Of a stretch of DNA of 44,559 nt, positions 17,004 through 25,515 are shown in pieces. The position numbers and the translations under genes are program-made. This stretch comes from Lachnospiraceae bacterium (GTDB lineage Bacteria > Bacillota > Clostridia > Lachnospirales > Lachnospiraceae). The DNA is taken from positions 1 to 44,559 of the forward strand of contig JALELK010000068.1 of NCBI GenBank assembly GCA_022768745.1. The letters are read 5' to 3'. The notes beneath the pieces are model-generated. The model saw only the letters and a program-made list of their open reading frames with translations, was not told the DNA's origin and ran no database searches. How positions within the stretch are numbered: position 1 is the first letter of the stretch; every line of letters starts with the position of its first letter.

Positions 17004-18800
17004 ATGAGACGGATGAGAAATAAGAGACGACAGCTTGTGGTTTGGACTTTGATAGCATGTATGACGGTGGGAAGCGTTGGAATCTTTTGTAAAATGGATT
17101 CTAAGGCGGCTTCCGTTACCATAGACGGGGAGTTGGCAGACTGGGAGAGTATCCCGGCGCAGGGTTCTGCAGATGCCAGCGTACCTATGTGGAAAGTGGC
17201 ACAGGACAAGGATTTTATCTACTTCTGTGGACAGGATAAAAATGGGACGGACTGGTATCGTCCGTTGACTCAGCAGACGGTGATTTTTAGTTATGCCAAC
17301 GGAAGTGCCACCGGAGAGAATGGAAATAAGGCCCAGACAGGGCTTTCGGTAAACGGCGACGAAGTAAAGGTGATTGACGCCTGGTATCAGCAAATCAGTG
17401 GTGCCACCGCCGTATGTAAAACTTTGGCTGGGACTTCTATGGATGCCAATATGGAGAGGGCATACGAGTGGAGTATACCAAAGAGCTTTTTGGCAGATAC
17501 AAATTATGCCCTGAAATTTTGTGGCACGGAAATTGCAGGAACGGATATTCCGTCTTTAGATGGAAGCAGTACAGAGCCGGAGGGAGACAAGGAAAATCCT
17601 TCCGAAGGAGATAAGAAAGAAGACGGGGACAAGCCTTCCGAGGGAGAGGAGTCAAAGCCTTCTTATCAGGGAATCGTCATTGATGGACAGTTTCAGGACT
17701 GGGATGCCATTCAAAAGACAGCAGTCACCGGTAATACAGGGGACAATACTCTGGATGAGGTAGCTATGGTCTGGGATGGAGACACGGTTTATCTGTATTT
17801 TATGGCAAAAGGAAATGATGACGGAACCGGTAACTGGAGTTCTGTTACTTGGTCCGGCCCAAACAGCAATGGAAAATTTGCCATTACCACAGATTTAGGA
17901 AACACCCTGCTGGTACAGTTGGTAAATGAAAATGGAAAACCGGCAGTTGCAGGTGTGGATGGCGCAAAGGTTGCGGTAAACAATCAGGATTGGACGGGAG
18001 CACCTCATATGTGGGAGGTTTCCATTCCGGCCAGTGCTCTTCCGGCATATAAGGAAACCGTCAGTTTTGGATTTTATCAGGTAGATCCTTTTGTTAAGGA
18101 TATGGCAAATCTTCAGGGAAATCCGGACACAGGGGACAAGGATTTCAATGGCATTGTCATTGATGGTCTCTACGGAGACTGGACCAATTATCCACACACC
18201 TTGATTCAGTACGCCACACCGGGAACCGGGGACAGCAAACCCGATGGTGAGGCAGCGCTTTATACCAATGACGGCACTTTATATGCTCATGTAAAGACAG
18301 AGATGCAGGCTCACAGACAGGAAGCCGGAGGAGAGTTCACCCAAGGTATAAATGTTCGATTAAACGGAAATGAGAATTATACCTTTATGCCTCAGATTGT
18401 TGCGGTGGATGCCCAGGGAAATATTGATTACAATCCCCGGTTGTCCGGATTGACTCAGGGAACTTATGAGTTCTATATGATAGATGCAACCGGATGGAAG
18501 ACGGCAACCAATATCTCTGAGCTGGATAGCAAAGGAAATGGTTTGTACGGACATATGTATGTCACGGTAGGTGCATCGGCAGATGATACAGAGTTTGAGA
18601 TGGATATGTCAAAGCTGGCAGATAAGTTTGGCTTGGACAAGGATGATATACATAAGGCGGAAATCCAGTGGCAGAGAATTGGTCAGCAATGGGTTACCAC
18701 GGCGGGTACCTCTACCGGTGCCTGGCTGGGATTACTTCTTTGTTTTGCGGCTGTGGGTGTCGCCTATGTGATTCAGGTAAAAAGAAAGAAGACAGTATAA
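17004..18800 (+). CDS. Secreted, C-terminally anchored protein, probable XrtG substrate
   Basis: The protein has 598 residues. It has a signal peptide (basic MRRMRNKRR, hydrophobic core, cut near residue 35). Three modules each begin with an IDGxxxDW motif: TIDGELADW (about 38), VIDGQFQDW (about 225) and VIDGLYGDW (about 384), reminiscent of CBM9/DOMON-like sugar-binding folds. A Glu/Asp/Lys/Pro/Ser linker covers about 189-220. The end is TSTGAWLGLLLCF, a single helix, then QVKRKKTV, which is the tripartite layout of a sorting signal. It is directly followed by the exosortase start codon. Known XrtG loci carry one such protein (Firmicu-CTERM type). Substrate status is inferred from position and tail. 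GAGGGGAG precedes the ATG. Confidence 0.8.
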   Translation: MRRMRNKRRQLVVWTLIACMTVGSVGIFCKMDSKAASVTIDGELADWESIPAQGSADASVPMWKVAQDKDFIYFCGQDKNGTDWYRPLTQQTVIFSYANGSATGENGNKAQTGLSVNGDEVKVIDAWYQQISGATAVCKTLAGTSMDANMERAYEWSIPKSFLADTNYALKFCGTEIAGTDIPSLDGSSTEPEGDKENPSEGDKKEDGDKPSEGEESKPSYQGIVIDGQFQDWDAIQKTAVTGNTGDNTLDEVAMVWDGDTVYLYFMAKGNDDGTGNWSSVTWSGPNSNGKFAITTDLGNTLLVQLVNENGKPAVAGVDGAKVAVNNQDWTGAPHMWEVSIPASALPAYKETVSFGFYQVDPFVKDMANLQGNPDTGDKDFNGIVIDGLYGDWTNYPHTLIQYATPGTGDSKPDGEAALYTNDGTLYAHVKTEMQAHRQEAGGEFTQGINVRLNGNENYTFMPQIVAVDAQGNIDYNPRLSGLTQGTYEFYMIDATGWKTATNISELDSKGNGLYGHMYVTVGASADDTEFEMDMSKLADKFGLDKDDIHKAEIQWQRIGQQWVTTAGTSTGAWLGLLLCFAAVGVAYVIQVKRKKTV

Positions 18801-19397
18801 GTGATAAAGGCAGTTATTGGAGTTGTCCTGATAGTTGTATGGTTTTATTTGCTGTGGACATTAAATCGTTCAAAACTACAATTTTGGCATTTCTTAGTGG
18901 GAAGTATGGGATTGTTTATCATCCTTATGGTATTTGTGCGACCGGTTATGACGGAGCCTCTGGCAAAGGCTATTGTGGCTATGGCCGGATTGTTTGGAGA
19001 GGCTACCGGCACATTTACTCCCTACTTTAAATACGGTATTTTGTTTGTAAATGCGGCTCAGGGAGCCATTACTTTACAGATAGATTTCGAGTGCTCCGGT
19101 ATTATTGAGATTATGGCATTTCTTTCCTTGTTGTGCTTTTTCCGGGTGTACAAAATCCGGGAGAGAATTGTTGTGGGAGTCTTAGGGACACTTTATATTA
19201 CCGTGGCAAACGCACTTAGAATTATCGTAATCAGCGAGATGATATATTACTTTGGTTTGGATGTGTACTATATTGCCCATACAATTATCGGCAGATTTGT
19301 TTTTTATGCTCTTTCTATTTTGTTGTATTTTTATGTATTTACCAAGCCGCAAATAGTTCGAATGAAGTTAGGAAAGTTCACCTATGGGGATCATTGA
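18801..19397 (+). CDS. xrtG: Exosortase family protein XrtG
   Basis: The protein has 198 residues, almost all membrane helices. The exosortase/archaeosortase catalytic triad is present: Cys98 in DFECSGIIEI, Arg140 in ANALRIIVISEM and His160 in YYIAHTIIGRFVFY. These membrane transpeptidase-like enzymes cut the C-terminal tripartite tail of secreted proteins; XrtG is the Gram-positive branch. The start is GTG directly abutting the preceding stop, with only a weak AAGAAGA site, so translation is probably coupled. The 3' end overlaps the glycosyltransferase by 14 bases. The neighbours (glycosyltransferase, PTPS homolog, PTPS-related membrane protein) are the known XrtG companions, which supports the call strongly. 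Confidence 0.92.
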   Translation: MIKAVIGVVLIVVWFYLLWTLNRSKLQFWHFLVGSMGLFIILMVFVRPVMTEPLAKAIVAMAGLFGEATGTFTPYFKYGILFVNAAQGAITLQIDFECSGIIEIMAFLSLLCFFRVYKIRERIVVGVLGTLYITVANALRIIVISEMIYYFGLDVYYIAHTIIGRFVFYALSILLYFYVFTKPQIVRMKLGKFTYGDH

Positions 19398-20775
19398 GAG
19401 ATTTGTAAATTCATTTGTATTTTGGGCAGCGTGGATTATCATTCCCTTCATTATGGAAATACTGCCGGCCTTTGGCAGTGTTTTTGTATTAGTGAAGAGA
19501 CTTCTCTTTGAAAAGAAGGCGCCTAAGCCCATTATTTATCCGGAAATATCCATTATTGTTCCGGTCTATAATTCAAAAGACACACTGAGAGCCTGTATAA
19601 AATCCATTAACGACAGCGAGTATCCCAACGAAAAAATTCGTCTTTATCTGGTGAACAATCGAAGTTCCGATGACAGTTTTTCCGTTTATACCGCATGTCA
19701 AAAAGAGTACCCTGATTTGCTGATGCAGTGGCTGAATGCAGAACAGGGCAAATCCAGAGCCCTCAATTTGGCACTATATAACAGTGTGGGAAAATACATT
19801 ATACATATTGACAGCGACGGTATTTTGGAGAAGTCTGCCCTTACCAATATGGTGGATAAATTCGAGTCAGATACAAAAATTAACGTTGTCACCGGCGCAA
19901 TTATGATTCAGCCGGAATTGGTGGAAGCCTATCCCAAGGGTAAATCCCGACTTTTGCGAAAGATGGAGTTTATGGAATATGCCCAGGCATTTTTGGCGGG
20001 ACGAAATTGCGCTTCGGATTTGAATTCCATCTATACTCTTTCCGGGGCGTTTTCTGCCTTCCGAAAATCAGCTATTTTAAAATCAAGATTATACAGTACA
20101 GATACTTTAGCAGAGGATACACAGATTACATTTCAGATGCGCTATCTGCAAAATGAGCGTATCTATATGAGTGAGAATTCTATCTTTTTTGTGGACCCTA
20201 TTGAGAACGTGGACAAGCTGTACACCCAGAGACAGCGTTGGCAGAGAGGAAGTCTGGAGGTCTCCAAAATGTTCGGGGGAGCAAAAATGAAAACCAGACA
20301 GATGTTTTCCGATGTCTCTGTAAAAACGCTGATGTATGACCATACCTTTGCCTTTCCGCGAATCATATGGTATCTGGCATTAATCTGTCTGATGGCGGTG
20401 GGATACTCTGTAAAAACCGTGGTGCTTGCCACAGCGTTTTTGTTTGGAATGTATATTTTATGCGGATTTATGTATTTTGGTTCCACCATCGGATTCTTAA
20501 AGGATTTTCCGGAAGTGAAGAAGTACTACAAGAAACAGTGGTGGGTGGTATTTCTCCTGCCGTTTTTCAACTTTGTAGTATTCTTTATCCGTTTTGCAGG
20601 AATCATTAACAGTATTAATACAGACAGTGCGTGGAAAACGGTGACTCTGTCGGAGGAGGGAAAACATTTTCGCCAGACGGTAAAGAATGATTTTCGACAT
20701 ATCCACAGTGGCATTGTGAAACTGCGGAAATTGGTAAATGAAAAAGAGGAAATCCAAGAAAATGAAGAAATTTAG
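19384..20775 (+). CDS. XrtG-associated family 2 glycosyltransferase
   Basis: The protein has 463 residues. An N-terminal helix (VFWAAWIIIPFIMEI) precedes the GT-A domain. It starts SIIVPVYNSKDTLRACIKSI, with the nucleotide-sugar DxD in HIDSDG near residue 142, the acceptor-site LAEDTQITFQMR and QRQRWQRG near 281, the motif of processive family 2 enzymes. Two to three C-terminal helices follow. This matches the glycosyltransferase type described beside XrtG. It probably builds or transfers a glycan at the membrane, perhaps onto the XrtG substrate; sugar and acceptor are unknown. It overlaps xrtG by 14 bases. Confidence 0.9.
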   Translation: MGIIERFVNSFVFWAAWIIIPFIMEILPAFGSVFVLVKRLLFEKKAPKPIIYPEISIIVPVYNSKDTLRACIKSINDSEYPNEKIRLYLVNNRSSDDSFSVYTACQKEYPDLLMQWLNAEQGKSRALNLALYNSVGKYIIHIDSDGILEKSALTNMVDKFESDTKINVVTGAIMIQPELVEAYPKGKSRLLRKMEFMEYAQAFLAGRNCASDLNSIYTLSGAFSAFRKSAILKSRLYSTDTLAEDTQITFQMRYLQNERIYMSENSIFFVDPIENVDKLYTQRQRWQRGSLEVSKMFGGAKMKTRQMFSDVSVKTLMYDHTFAFPRIIWYLALICLMAVGYSVKTVVLATAFLFGMYILCGFMYFGSTIGFLKDFPEVKKYYKKQWWVVFLLPFFNFVVFFIRFAGIINSINTDSAWKTVTLSEEGKHFRQTVKNDFRHIHSGIVKLRKLVNEKEEIQENEEI

Positions 20776-21862
20776 CAAAGAGAGAGAAGTTCAGAAAAAA
20801 AGAGATTTCAGAATATGGATTGTGGCAGGGGTAATGATGACACTGGTTGTCATCTGTGTATGTTGCGCCTGGGCACAGATGAAGAAGTACGAACGGGGTG
20901 TGCTGGATGTGTATGCAGTGCAGCAGGACGGATATGTGCAGTTGGTGTTGGACCAGATTAATCTTCAGGAAGACCAGGACAGCGAGGAGATTGTACATAA
21001 TATATTGGAGACCTTGGATGCCTCAAGCAATCACTACTGGACCTTATCCGATGCAGGTTCTTTGGTTTTTGTAAAGGATGTGCTGGAGACAAATCGTTAC
21101 AAGGGCTTTACCCAGGAGAGCTATTACACCTCAGGAAGTGCCGGGGAGTTTATCAAGTCCCTTCAGGAAGACCGGGTGACTCATCGGGAGATTACCGTAA
21201 AAGATCAGGATTTTGTGGCATCCGGCGTGTCCTTTTCCTACAATGGGAAAAGCTATGCCATGTGTCTTTTGACCAGTACCGATGCTATCTTAGATCAGAA
21301 TGAGTATCTCAGTGCAAAAATTACTCTGGAACTTTTGGTACTGATTGCCCTTGCTGTTGTGGTCTGCGGAGGCTTTATTCTGGCACTTATGACAGAGCGG
21401 TGGCAGAAAGAATGTCAGCAGATAAAAGGGGAGAAACAGGTTTTATTTGAAAAGGTGGAAAAAATGAACCATCTCAGAATGAAAGAGTTACTTTTCCATC
21501 CCCGTTATTCCGCTTTTTACCCAGGAGCTTTACCGGAACTGCTGGAGCGTATGGAAAAGAAAAATATCTGGCCTCTTGAGATGGTACTTGTGAAATGTGA
21601 AAAGGGAGAGCAGAGGGATGAATTTATGTCTCTGTCCCAGATTTATCTGGGTAAAAAGACCCTGCGGGTCATTTTAGATGATGCACATGTGATGCTGTTG
21701 TTTATGAGAGAAGAATCAAAGTCTCAGGAGGAGATGAAGAAATTTATAGAATCCCTAAAGGGAGAGTATATAAAGAGCAGAAGGTGGGAGGAGCCACCGG
21801 AGGAATCCTTGAAAAAAGAGTTTGTAAGCTTTTGGAATGGGGGAGAAGAAGATGGAAAGTAG
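20762..21862 (+). CDS. Two-helix membrane protein of the XrtG locus, unknown function
   Basis: The protein has 366 residues from the start used. It has a basic N-terminus, a transmembrane helix at about 16-37, and an extracytoplasmic region of about 150 residues. A second helix at about 187-210 (LLVLIALAVVVCGGFILALM) leads into a charged, coiled-coil-like stretch and a cytosolic domain of about 120 residues. The layout is that of a sensor or signal-transducing receptor. The tail (LEMVLVKCEKGEQ, then LRVILDDAHVMLLF) faintly recalls a degenerate nucleotide-cyclase-like fold. I do not recognise the family. The ATG at 20762 has GAGGA 11 bases upstream and is preferred over 20738. It overlaps the glycosyltransferase and the PTPS gene. 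Confidence 0.75.
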   Translation: MKKFSKEREVQKKRDFRIWIVAGVMMTLVVICVCCAWAQMKKYERGVLDVYAVQQDGYVQLVLDQINLQEDQDSEEIVHNILETLDASSNHYWTLSDAGSLVFVKDVLETNRYKGFTQESYYTSGSAGEFIKSLQEDRVTHREITVKDQDFVASGVSFSYNGKSYAMCLLTSTDAILDQNEYLSAKITLELLVLIALAVVVCGGFILALMTERWQKECQQIKGEKQVLFEKVEKMNHLRMKELLFHPRYSAFYPGALPELLERMEKKNIWPLEMVLVKCEKGEQRDEFMSLSQIYLGKKTLRVILDDAHVMLLFMREESKSQEEMKKFIESLKGEYIKSRRWEEPPEESLKKEFVSFWNGGEEDGK

Positions 21863-22325
21863 ATTATTGTGTGAATACTGCTTTAAATTTTATTTAAATG
21901 CCAGCCACAGCATTATCATTAACGGAAAACAGGGAGAGGTGCATCCCCACACCTGGGAAATTATGCTGGATATTGTGGTGGAACGAAAGGAATTCATGGA
22001 ATTTAATGAGTATGAAAAGGTAGCCAGGGATTTCTTTGCAAAATATCAGGAGCAGGTGTTAAACGATGTGGAGCCCTTTGATACGGTGGTTCCTACCTTG
22101 GAAAATATCGTGGACTACTTCGGAGGAGAACTGCGAAACTGTATGAGACAGGTAGGCGGTAGTCTGGTGCGGATTGAGGGAAGTGAAACTCCCACCAGAA
22201 GTTATGTAGTGTCCTATGGAGACAAGGAGGATTATATCAACGATGTGAGAGAGTATTCAAAAAGTTCTCTTACCAGAGTGATTGATGATATGTTGGATCA
22301 GATGTTGGAAGAGAAAGACTGTTAG
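21852..22325 (+). CDS. 6-pyruvoyl-tetrahydropterin synthase homolog, XrtG-associated
   Basis: The protein has 157 residues. The zinc triad of the PTPS/QueD fold is present as His19 (NASHSI) with His31 and His33 (EVHPHTWEI). In E. coli QueD the catalytic cysteine sits four residues before the first histidine of the HGH motif; here that position is Gln27. The HGH glycine is proline. The standard reaction is therefore doubtful. PTPS relatives of this kind are a known XrtG companion. No queuosine or folate genes are near, so a metal or pterin-like ligand-binding role is possible. The start at 21852 has GGGGGAG 6 bases upstream and is preferred to 21837. It overlaps the preceding gene by 11 bases. 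Confidence 0.85.
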   Translation: MESRLLCEYCFKFYLNASHSIIINGKQGEVHPHTWEIMLDIVVERKEFMEFNEYEKVARDFFAKYQEQVLNDVEPFDTVVPTLENIVDYFGGELRNCMRQVGGSLVRIEGSETPTRSYVVSYGDKEDYINDVREYSKSSLTRVIDDMLDQMLEEKDC

Positions 22326-22334
22326 GAGCAGAAT

Positions 22335-24731
22335 ATGAGCAAGACAAAACAAAGAAGTTTTATTGTGGGCACTTTGCTATTCTATGGGATACTTTCCGGC
22401 CTGATTGTGTTTGTGATATCCAAAAGCGGGGTGTATCCCCGGGGAGAAGAAACCCTGTATTACCTCTATCGGGGAGATTTTTTTCTGCAGCAGATAAAGC
22501 AGGGAAATCTCTTTCCTCTGTGGGATGCTAACTGGTATAACGGGATGGATGTGAGAAGCTACTCACCACTTATGGGATATGTGTTGGCGGTTTGCCAATT
22601 CCTGGCAGGAGGCAATCTGTGGAATGGCTATCTGGTGTTTGTAGTTACACTTTTTTTGTGTGGAGGAATCTGTTGGCTGGTAATCGGGTGTAAAAGAAAC
22701 CGTCCTTGGATGGGCGCTCTTTTAGGTGTGCTCTGGTTTTTTATGCCAACAAATTTATATACGGTATTTGAACAGGGCAATCTGTCCTATGGCATTTGTG
22801 CTGCCTTGCTTCCGCTGGTTATCTGGGGAATCCATCAGTTTCTGGAAAAGAACCGGTGGAAATTTTTGCTGCAGGCATTGATAATCTATCTGTTGATTCT
22901 TATGTTCCATGTGGGTTATGGAGTGGTGTTGGCAGGCTCTCTGGGGCTGTATCTGTTGATTTATCATTTTGCAAATCGAAAGACGAAAGCACCGGGAATT
23001 GTTTTTTTAGGTATTTTGTCCACCCTTTTGGTGATGGGAGGATGGGTGTTTTCCCTGTGGAAGGAACAGGGACAGGCACCGGATATCATCGGTCTGTTTC
23101 AAGAGCAGATGCAAAGCTATTGGATTACCATAAATCCGTTGCTTCGGCTTCAGGAAGGATATACGCATACCTATTTTGGAATAGCTGTATTTGTATTTAT
23201 CATCTTTGGAATCTTTATGGCAAAGAAGTCAACCATGCTCTGGCTGTGGACCGGACTGGTTGTCTCCATCGTTATGCCGGGTTTCCTTGGAATTCCATTG
23301 GCCTTTGTCCTGTATGGATTTATGGAGTGGAAGAGTTTAAAGAAACCTTTTGTGGCAGTGGCATTTTTGCTGATGGTGTTGGACGTGGTTCCATCCGCAA
23401 AGCTGTTGTACGGGGAATTTAACGGAGCTACTCCGCAGGATAGACTCAGTGAAATAGAAAAGACCACTCTTATCAAAGAGGCAAAGGAGATAACGGAGCA
23501 GAGACTGACGTTTATCGATGGGGGAAGTCTGGGCACAGAGGCAGCCTATCTGATTTCGTCCGGAGAAAACGGCATAAAGGAAGTGGCCGGAGTGGGAGGC
23601 GAGAAGTTCGCTGTTTACCGCAATGTGGAACAGTTGAACCAGGCAGCTCAGGACGGAAATTATCTGTATCTTTTCGACCGGTGTATTGAGATGGGAAGTG
23701 ATTCGGTTTTAATTGGACTGGACCAGATTTACGGAGAAAATGAGGATATCGGAGCATTGGATGGAGCGGCAAACAGATTGGGATATGGTGTGGTGGCATC
23801 CAACCAGAAGTATCGTCTGTACCACAAAAATACCCCTGAGAGTTTTGGAGTCTCTTCCAAGTATGAGGCTATCGGTATCGGAACTTCCGCACCTATGATT
23901 TCTCTGAGTTTTCCTATGGTGGAGGAGACGGACGATACAAATTTAAACCACTATACTTATGAGGAATTGTCCCAGTACAGACAAATCTATCTGGCGGGAT
24001 TTACCTATACAGACCGGGAGTCGGCAGAACAGTTGATAAAGAAGTTAAGTGAAAACGGAGTCCGGGTGGTGATTTTGGCAGATGGAATACCGGTGGATGG
24101 AAACAGCGGATTGCAGACCTTTTTGGGAGTGACCTGTCAAAAGATTACTTTCTCCTACGGATATCCGGAGCTGGATACCACAAAGGGAATCATACGAAGT
24201 GATTTGTTCCCGGAGGGACACAGCAAGTGGAATACTGTTTATCTGAAGGGATTGACAGATATCTGGGGAACGGCAACGGTGTTGGATAAGCAGTTGGCAT
24301 TTTACGGAACCGGACAAAACAAAAATCTGATTTACGTGGGATTAAATCTGACTTACCATTATGCTCTTACAAAGGACAAATCCATAGGTTTGCTTTTGTC
24401 TGAGGCAATCCAGTTGAGTGGAGACAGCATCCCTCAGAGAGATTTGGTTCCACTACGCATCAGTCAATCCGGCAATCAGATCACAATCCGGTCCAGAAAT
24501 GACGGGGTAAACACCACGCTGGCATATCAGAATCTTTTCGCCGGTGGAGAAGGTATTTACAAGAAAAACAATCTGACTTATGTAAATGCCGGAGAGACAG
24601 TGATAAAGATAAGACCGGAATATGGCATACAGGGATTTGGCATCAGCGGAATAGGGCTGATTTTGTGGATATGTTTCTTTAGTTGGATAAAAAAGAAGGA
24701 AAAAGCCGGGAAAGAGGAAAGCAATGGATGA
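22335..24731 (+). CDS. Large PTPS-associated membrane protein, GT-C-like
   Basis: The protein has 798 residues. The N-terminal half (to about 360) holds around ten membrane helices. The first external loop has RGEETLYYLYRGDFF and later PLWDANWYNGMDVRSYSP, where acidic residues stand as in GT-C lipid-sugar glycosyltransferases. A soluble extracytoplasmic half of about 400 residues follows, and one C-terminal helix ends in KKKEKAGKEESNG. This is the type annotated as a 6-pyruvoyl-tetrahydropterin synthase-related membrane domain, named for its neighbour rather than for similarity to it. It may transfer a polyprenyl-linked glycan outside the membrane. The gap to the PTPS homolog is 9 bases, with TAGGAGC as ribosome site. 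Confidence 0.85.
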   Translation: MSKTKQRSFIVGTLLFYGILSGLIVFVISKSGVYPRGEETLYYLYRGDFFLQQIKQGNLFPLWDANWYNGMDVRSYSPLMGYVLAVCQFLAGGNLWNGYLVFVVTLFLCGGICWLVIGCKRNRPWMGALLGVLWFFMPTNLYTVFEQGNLSYGICAALLPLVIWGIHQFLEKNRWKFLLQALIIYLLILMFHVGYGVVLAGSLGLYLLIYHFANRKTKAPGIVFLGILSTLLVMGGWVFSLWKEQGQAPDIIGLFQEQMQSYWITINPLLRLQEGYTHTYFGIAVFVFIIFGIFMAKKSTMLWLWTGLVVSIVMPGFLGIPLAFVLYGFMEWKSLKKPFVAVAFLLMVLDVVPSAKLLYGEFNGATPQDRLSEIEKTTLIKEAKEITEQRLTFIDGGSLGTEAAYLISSGENGIKEVAGVGGEKFAVYRNVEQLNQAAQDGNYLYLFDRCIEMGSDSVLIGLDQIYGENEDIGALDGAANRLGYGVVASNQKYRLYHKNTPESFGVSSKYEAIGIGTSAPMISLSFPMVEETDDTNLNHYTYEELSQYRQIYLAGFTYTDRESAEQLIKKLSENGVRVVILADGIPVDGNSGLQTFLGVTCQKITFSYGYPELDTTKGIIRSDLFPEGHSKWNTVYLKGLTDIWGTATVLDKQLAFYGTGQNKNLIYVGLNLTYHYALTKDKSIGLLLSEAIQLSGDSIPQRDLVPLRISQSGNQITIRSRNDGVNTTLAYQNLFAGGEGIYKKNNLTYVNAGETVIKIRPEYGIQGFGISGIGLILWICFFSWIKKKEKAGKEESNG

Positions 24732-25515
24732 GTTGACGGCACATTACAATAAATTTAATGAGGACAAGCGATTGACCAGACGTCATGGTCAGGTGGAATA
24801 TATCACCACAATGAAGTACATTCATGAGGTTTTGCAACAGTTGACAGAAACCGGGCGCAAGGCTTCCGAAATTTCCATATTGGATATCGGAGCCGGGACA
24901 GGCAGGTACTGTATCCCTCTCTCAGAAGAGGGATATCAGGTTTCTGCCATTGAATATGTGAAATACAATCTGGGTATTTTGAAACAGAAAAAAAGTCAGG
25001 TACAGGCATTTCAGGGAGACGCCAGAAAGCTGAAAAGATTTGAAGATGACGGCTTTGATGTGAGTCTCCTTTTTGGTCCTATGTATCATCTTTACACGCC
25101 GGAGGACAAGTTGCAGGCTCTTTTGGAGGCAAAGCGGGTCACAAAGCCCGGGGGATATATTCTGGTGGCATATCTGATGAACGAGTATGGGGTTTTGACC
25201 TATGGGTTCAAAGAACAAAATGCCATAGAATGTCTCTCGGACGGACGGTTGGATGAGGAGTTTCACTGTCATTCTTCCCAAAAGGATTTGTATGATTATG
25301 TGAGATTGGAGGACATAGAGAGTCTCCGGGAGCAGGCGGGATTACACCGGGTAAAAATCATCTCTGCCGACGGACCGGCGGATTATATGCGACGGGAATT
25401 AAATGCTATGTCAGAGGAATTGTTTCAAAAATTCATAGAGTATCATTTGAAAACCTGCGAAAGAGAAGAGCTTTTAGGGGCAGGAGCCCATACATTGGAT
25501 ATACTAAAAAAATAG
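24724..25515 (+). CDS. Class I SAM-dependent methyltransferase
   Basis: The protein has 263 residues. Motif I is ILDIGAGTGRYC (about 52-63), an acidic residue ends the next strand (SAIEYVKYNL), then come FQGDARKL, DVSLLFGPMYHLYTPEDK (motif IV) and KPGGYILVAYL. No membrane segment is visible. The start overlaps the preceding gene by 8 bases, so it is the last gene of the XrtG block. It may methylate the glycan or a small molecule made there, but methyltransferases of this type are also common outside such loci. A terminator overlaps its stop region. Confidence 0.88.
   Translation: MDELTAHYNKFNEDKRLTRRHGQVEYITTMKYIHEVLQQLTETGRKASEISILDIGAGTGRYCIPLSEEGYQVSAIEYVKYNLGILKQKKSQVQAFQGDARKLKRFEDDGFDVSLLFGPMYHLYTPEDKLQALLEAKRVTKPGGYILVAYLMNEYGVLTYGFKEQNAIECLSDGRLDEEFHCHSSQKDLYDYVRLEDIESLREQAGLHRVKIISADGPADYMRRELNAMSEELFQKFIEYHLKTCEREELLGAGAHTLDILKK

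Follow-up and report, generated by a model that had tools for sequence, protein, structure and literature searches.

Cache-like membrane protein with a predicted degenerate GGDEF-fold domain, a core subunit of the Lachnospiraceae/Oscillospiraceae-type XrtG system

Proteins with degenerate GGDEF domains are known to switch exopolysaccharide (EPS) synthases in several bacteria, and the described examples, PssE, YdaK and PelD, all do so via an RxxD I-site (PMC4125290, PMC5422440, PMC7112168). PssE is needed for polymer synthesis (PMC4125290), YdaK co-localizes with the glycosyltransferase YdaM and is required for an EPS (PMC5422440), and PelD is a post-translational regulator encoded in an EPS operon, with its GGDEF domain lost in streptococci (PMC7112168). 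The genes of the exosortase-G (XrtG) system serve to make a surface sugar polymer and to attach a protein at the cell surface. XrtG is catalogued in the literature searched almost only through sequence models; a single study there names a complete XrtG system, in an expression result from Lactiplantibacillus plantarum (PMC12854382). Here we analyze an XrtG operon of a Lachnospiraceae bacterium (assembly GCA_022768745.1, contig JALELK010000068.1; the window is the whole stretch of 44,559 nucleotides) and describe the protein encoded between the genes for the XrtG-associated glycosyltransferase (GT) and the PTPS-like protein, hereafter the slot protein. We find that it is a hitherto unnamed core subunit of XrtG systems of the Lachnospiraceae/Oscillospiraceae type; the literature searched names no XrtG companion of such a shape. 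Its parts are as follows:

20762-21862, forward strand: coding sequence of the slot protein, a Cache-like/degenerate-GGDEF membrane protein of the XrtG operon (366 residues; coordinates include the stop)
20813-20875, forward strand: transmembrane (TM) helix 1, residues ~18-38 (from hydropathy; a helix in the model)
20882-21301, forward strand: predicted Cache/PAS-like domain on the outside, residues ~41-180, better conserved than any other part (from the model, fold search and conservation)
21320-21397, forward strand: TM helix 2, residues ~187-212 (from hydropathy)
21398-21496, forward strand: helical linker continuous with TM helix 2, residues ~213-245 (within helix 180-244 of the model)
21497-21796, forward strand: predicted shortened, degenerate GGDEF-fold domain, residues ~246-345 (from models, Foldseek, and a profile link to a GGDEF-positive slot homologue)
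21671-21688, forward strand: hairpin at the position of the GGDEF motif, reading ILDDAH (residues 304-309), preceded by the invariant R302 and with no in-register RxxD upstream

A reading made from the sequence alone had described two helices flanking an external domain, a coiled-coil-like linker, and a cytosolic domain with a faint likeness to a degenerate nucleotide cyclase. The two hydropathy helices agree with this plan, and the AlphaFold model, built on the alignment of 57 sequences (mean pLDDT 84), shows one unbroken helix, residues 180-244, running from TM helix 2 through the linker into a compact alpha/beta domain. In this predicted model the external domain of about 140 residues has a long N-terminal helix and a PAS-like sheet between the two TM helices, the arrangement of a Cache domain, despite the absence of any Pfam Cache hit for the slot protein. 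A Foldseek search of the PDB with the full-length model recovers both Cache/PAS structures (WalK model 9a5d, 4zr7 and Tlp3) and GGDEF proteins (DosP, SiaD, Dcsbis and FimX). The cytosolic domain of about 100 residues, when modelled alone (pLDDT 85, pTM 0.78), adopts a predicted GGDEF fold: 48 of its 50 best PDB matches contain GGDEF domains, the best being DosP (E 5.2e-4), with the FimX GGDEF domain at E 8.6e-4. Together, the models indicate a Cache/PAS-like domain outside and a shortened GGDEF fold inside, and the faint cyclase resemblance is borne out in the form of that fold.

The fold is joined to the GGDEF family by intermediate homologues. The window protein itself gives no hit at the sequence cut-off of the Pfam GGDEF model (PF00990); only the diverged slot homologue of locus L125 (L125:12148-13395) passes it (E 3.5e-5), while those of L040 (E 0.025) and L039 (E 0.13) match below threshold in the right register of the profile. 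Searched against 3650 open reading frames (ORFs), a profile of the cytosolic domain alone finds L125 as its best out-of-family match (E 1e-3), followed by L167 (0.03), and the top out-of-family matches of a profile of the external domain alone are all XrtG-slot proteins (L167, L041, L037, L125, L040, L036 and L039). Across loci, the slot proteins supply successive stages of GGDEF decay, from Pfam-recognizable versions to ones that have been replaced.

The decay also shows at the active and allosteric sites. None of the 57 aligned sequences retains GG(D/E)EF at the hairpin, and the glycine pair is gone in every one; relatives often show SMDE or SMDD in its place, and R302 ahead of it is invariant. 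An RxxD I-site in register, five residues before the degenerate motif, is found in none of the 57 (two have it out of register), nor is it present in L167, one of the two order-level homologues, while the other, L125, keeps it at exactly that distance (RKSD-IVARL-NQNEL). The window protein does contain the letters GGEE, but in its C-terminal tail and far from where the motif would be, so this was set aside as a chance occurrence. As the GGDEF signature has been lost and the in-register I-site is absent, the slot protein should be incapable of cyclase activity and is unlikely to be a cyclic di-GMP (c-di-GMP) receptor of the canonical type.

The family set consists of the window protein and 56 aligned homologues with 27-53% identity to it. 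Because the 57 sequences share 16 invariant residues, the ORF is not a chance one. Neither Pfam nor NCBIfam has a model that recognizes the slot protein at its cut-off, no significantly related PDB sequence was found, and the 57 sequences taken against the same three resources yield no coherent family. It therefore still lacks a named family, as the sequence-only reading had it, and no unrelated family was matched with confidence. Pairwise identity averages 53% across the external domain, as against 22-27% in the remaining parts, a pattern that suggests an invariant partner or ligand and is unlike what a sensor of changing surroundings would show.

Homologous loci were sought in a scan covering about 85,000 species, which returned 57 (L053-L109), labelled mostly Lachnospiraceae or Oscillospiraceae. 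All are XrtG-type operons with the gene in the same operon slot and the PTPS-like gene next downstream, supporting the earlier assignment of the slot protein to the XrtG system; the GT gene precedes it wherever the contig extends that far, and XrtG is visible in 55, the contigs of L059 and L109 ending before its position. In the window's genus, four of five genomes, the window's own included, have the slot protein. A close homologue was found in eight of the 299 genomes of the family sample, all eight among the 20 that bear XrtG (chance probability ~1e-10, hypergeometric). Eight of the other 12 XrtG loci in this sample have a remote slot homologue (L032, L033, L035, L036, L037, L039, L040 and L041; profile E 5e-14 to 9e-8 in a search against 14 candidate proteins), which brings the total to 16 of 20. 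Outside the family, slot homologues occur in genomes G740 (L125) and G885 (L167), the latter on another contig and next to a PTPS-like gene. Orthologs at other XrtG loci, which the sequence-only reading had proposed to seek by profile search, thus do exist, even though the slot protein is not universal to such loci.

Two loci from different genera, L032 and L037, encode the TM-external-TM-coil module and a PTPS domain in one chain, with the PTPS domain replacing the GGDEF-like one. A genus search found the L032 fusion in one further genome (G999, 96% identity); an equivalent search for a further fusion of the L037 type gave none. These fusions appear to link the cytosolic end of the slot protein to PTPS. 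At the positions of the PTPS motifs, the PTPS-like proteins retain three near-invariant histidines and glutamates; from what is known of the PTPS family, these would be the metal ligands and the pterin-binding residue. L033 encodes a 217-residue version of the slot protein that keeps the cytosolic domain and lacks the large external one.

On balance, we posit that the slot protein is a membrane adaptor of the XrtG system, with a Cache/PAS-like domain outside and an inactive GGDEF-derived domain inside, which gates or scaffolds the glycan machinery. The external domain would recognize something invariant, such as the exported glycan, the complex of Firmicu-CTERM protein and XrtG, or a small ligand; TM helix 2 and the linker helix would relay its state to the GGDEF-derived domain, and this domain might hold or gate the GT, the PTPS-like protein or both, so that glycan synthesis would be matched to protein sorting. 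Such action would most likely proceed by protein contacts and not through c-di-GMP at an I-site. While the anatomy and the family relationships are strongly supported, we lean only slightly towards this functional role; product sensing or scaffolding of the glycan machinery, both of which had been raised earlier for this protein, are favored by the PTPS fusions and the conservation of the external domain. A more specific version, which we offer tentatively as one possibility, is that the Cache domain senses either the exported glycan or the sorting complex, and that a nucleotide-free GGDEF relic, evolutionarily interchangeable with a PTPS-like domain, signals to the synthase. If true, a GGDEF-derived domain would here regulate without c-di-GMP, and the PTPS-like proteins of XrtG loci would gain a first functional role.

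Several observations weigh against the adaptor proposal. When the cytosolic domain is compared directly by hhalign with GGDEF domains (22, taken from related genomes), the alignment is in register but not significant (probability 0.6%); hence, its GGDEF homology is inferred via the fold and the intermediate homologues. The Foldseek E-values are modest, as are the TM-scores (mostly 0.4-0.6), which is expected because the domain is shortened. The PTPS fusions sit in diverged loci outside the window's clade, and the distance correlations are similar for all genes of the operon (0.74-0.93), so that PTPS is not singled out. Four of the 20 family-sample XrtG loci have no slot homologue (L034, L038, L042 and L043), and most of the phylum-level XrtG loci examined, Bacilli not being among them, likewise have none.

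Among the alternatives, a purely structural assembly factor, which would anchor the PTPS-like protein and the GT at the membrane beside XrtG without any sensing, fares best, even if we consider it rather unlikely. The direct fusion of PTPS to the TM-external-TM-coil module, the L033 form devoid of the large external domain, and gene overlaps suggestive of translational coupling are all in keeping with such an anchor, as is the precedent of degenerate GGDEF domains in E. coli that can be protein-interaction surfaces (PMC5635695). However, an anchor has no obvious need for a strongly conserved Cache-like external domain, and yet this is the most conserved part of the protein.

It is improbable, in our assessment, that the slot protein is instead a c-di-GMP receptor that switches on the GT in the manner of PssE, YdaK and PelD, whether the window's clade binds the nucleotide in an unrecognized mode or the protein pairs with an active cyclase in a heterodimer. 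The three are proven precedents in Gram-positive EPS operons (PMC4125290, PMC5422440, PMC7112168), and c-di-GMP is likely to be made by the window genome, which has 15 GGDEF-domain and seven EAL-domain matches, implying that the domain decayed while c-di-GMP enzymes were still encoded. The retention of the in-register RxxD in the Pfam-positive L125 also speaks for such a receptor. Conversely, the absence of this site from all 57 aligned sequences, the two out-of-register occurrences notwithstanding, disfavors an I-site receptor in the window's clade; L167 lacks it too, and in L032 and L037 the entire GGDEF-like domain is gone. No c-di-GMP or other riboswitch was found in a search near the operon, a result relevant to transcriptional control only. 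Finally, an active nucleotide cyclase, of the diguanylate or any other kind, which the GGDEF fold alone might evoke, is rejected as extremely improbable on the loss of the GG(D/E)EF motif in all 57 sequences and on the length of the domain, ~100 residues in place of ~160, with the metal- and GTP-binding segment missing.

The gene for the slot protein runs from an ATG at 20762 to a stop at 21860-21862. An alternative in-frame ATG at 20738 would give a protein of 374 residues; we favor the start at 20762 because the closest relatives have 365 residues (53% identity to the window protein). The gene overlaps both its neighbors, as had been noted from the sequence, sharing 14 bp with the end of the GT gene (stop at 20775) and 26 bp with the start of the listed PTPS ORF (ATG 21837). 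The neighbors match the models TIGR04145, TIGR03110, TIGR03111 and TIGR03112 of the XrtG system, and the operon lies entirely on the forward strand in the order Firmicu-CTERM, XrtG, GT, slot gene, PTPS-like, PTPS_related and methyltransferase:

17004-18800, forward strand: Firmicu-CTERM protein, the presumed XrtG substrate (TIGR04145, 5.5e-38)
18801-19397, forward strand: exosortase XrtG (TIGR03110, 1.1e-56)
19384-20775, forward strand: XrtG-associated GT2 glycosyltransferase (TIGR03111, 2.8e-180; PgaC/IcaA similarity weaker)
20746-20749, forward strand: GAGG, a possible ribosome-binding site 12 bases 5' of ATG 20762 (read directly from the sequence)
21837-22325, forward strand: PTPS-like protein (TIGR03112, 7.2e-39)
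22335-24731, forward strand: PTPS_related polytopic membrane protein (PF10131, 9.6e-92)
24724-25515, forward strand: methyltransferase, an operon member in the window's genus (PF08241, 1.8e-16)

The methyltransferase is present in L053, L054 and L102. TIGR04145 matches three stretches of the Firmicu-CTERM protein of the window, which has repeated IDG...DW modules that are carbohydrate-binding-like (CBM9/DOMON-like) in appearance. In L070 (L070:6736-8607), the Firmicu-CTERM protein and XrtG form one open frame of 623 residues, which could reflect a natural fusion of substrate and enzyme or else a deletion or assembly error.

The GT of the window (463 residues) has no sulfatase-fold domain; in L053 (L053:7074-9998) and 11 further loci (L054, L056, L057, L058, L060, L061, L064, L066, L068, L078 and L083) the XrtG-associated GT is ~950-990 residues long, and that of L053 ends in a fused membrane domain with a sulfatase fold (PF00884, 1.2e-18) that resembles LtaS/phosphoglycerol transferases. 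Where the GT carries this domain, the glycan may bear groups of the LtaS/phosphoglycerol-transferase type. The GT of L043 (L043:6335-8086) is fused to DUF1810 (PF08837, 1.5e-39), and L033 (L033:5563-7350) and L125 (L125:11011-13904) have, flanking the slot protein, an extra DPM1-like GT2 and a membrane protein resembling GtrA. Many of L063-L107 (L097, for example) have a second short PTPS-like ORF (105-164 residues) 5' of the gene for the Firmicu-CTERM protein, and in L036, L037, L039, L040 and L041 the PTPS_related protein contains a PTPS-like stretch; PTPS-like domains are thus often paired at XrtG loci.

Our findings add a core subunit to the XrtG system, together with a testable wiring from its external domain to the GT and the PTPS-like protein. 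They offer a possible reason for the presence of PTPS-like proteins at XrtG loci and could explain how the synthesis of a surface polymer is matched to protein attachment in Gram-positive gut bacteria. By analogy, the slot protein would work like PssE, YdaK and PelD; as it lacks their RxxD I-site, we do not class it with the I-site receptors. PssE, from the pssA-E operon of Listeria monocytogenes (PMC4125290), is likewise a degenerate GGDEF protein of a Gram-positive EPS synthase operon, whereas the slot protein lacks RxxD in register, carries an external domain of the Cache-like kind, and is encoded in an exosortase locus. YdaK, from the ydaJ-N operon of Bacillus subtilis (PMC5422440), is a degenerate GGDEF-TM protein co-encoded with a glycosyltransferase, but it has four predicted TM helices and needs its I-site residues R202/D205 (PMC5422440), to which the slot protein has no counterpart. 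The degenerate GGDEF domain of PelD in Pseudomonas and Bacillus cereus (PMC7112168) was similarly missed by sequence search and found by structure prediction; PelD combines four TM helices with a GAF domain and an I-site, in contrast to the two TM helices and external Cache-like domain seen here. BcsE of the E. coli cellulose secretion system (PMC8461298) offers a further parallel, with a domain of unknown function that structurally resembles a degenerate GGDEF domain next to a synthase; unlike the slot protein, it is cytosolic, Gram-negative, and binds c-di-GMP at an I-site (PMC8461298). Lastly, the TM-Cache-TM-helix-output plan is shared with Cache-GGDEF diguanylate cyclases and WalK-type Cache sensors, from which the slot protein differs in its inactive, shortened and operon-dedicated output domain.
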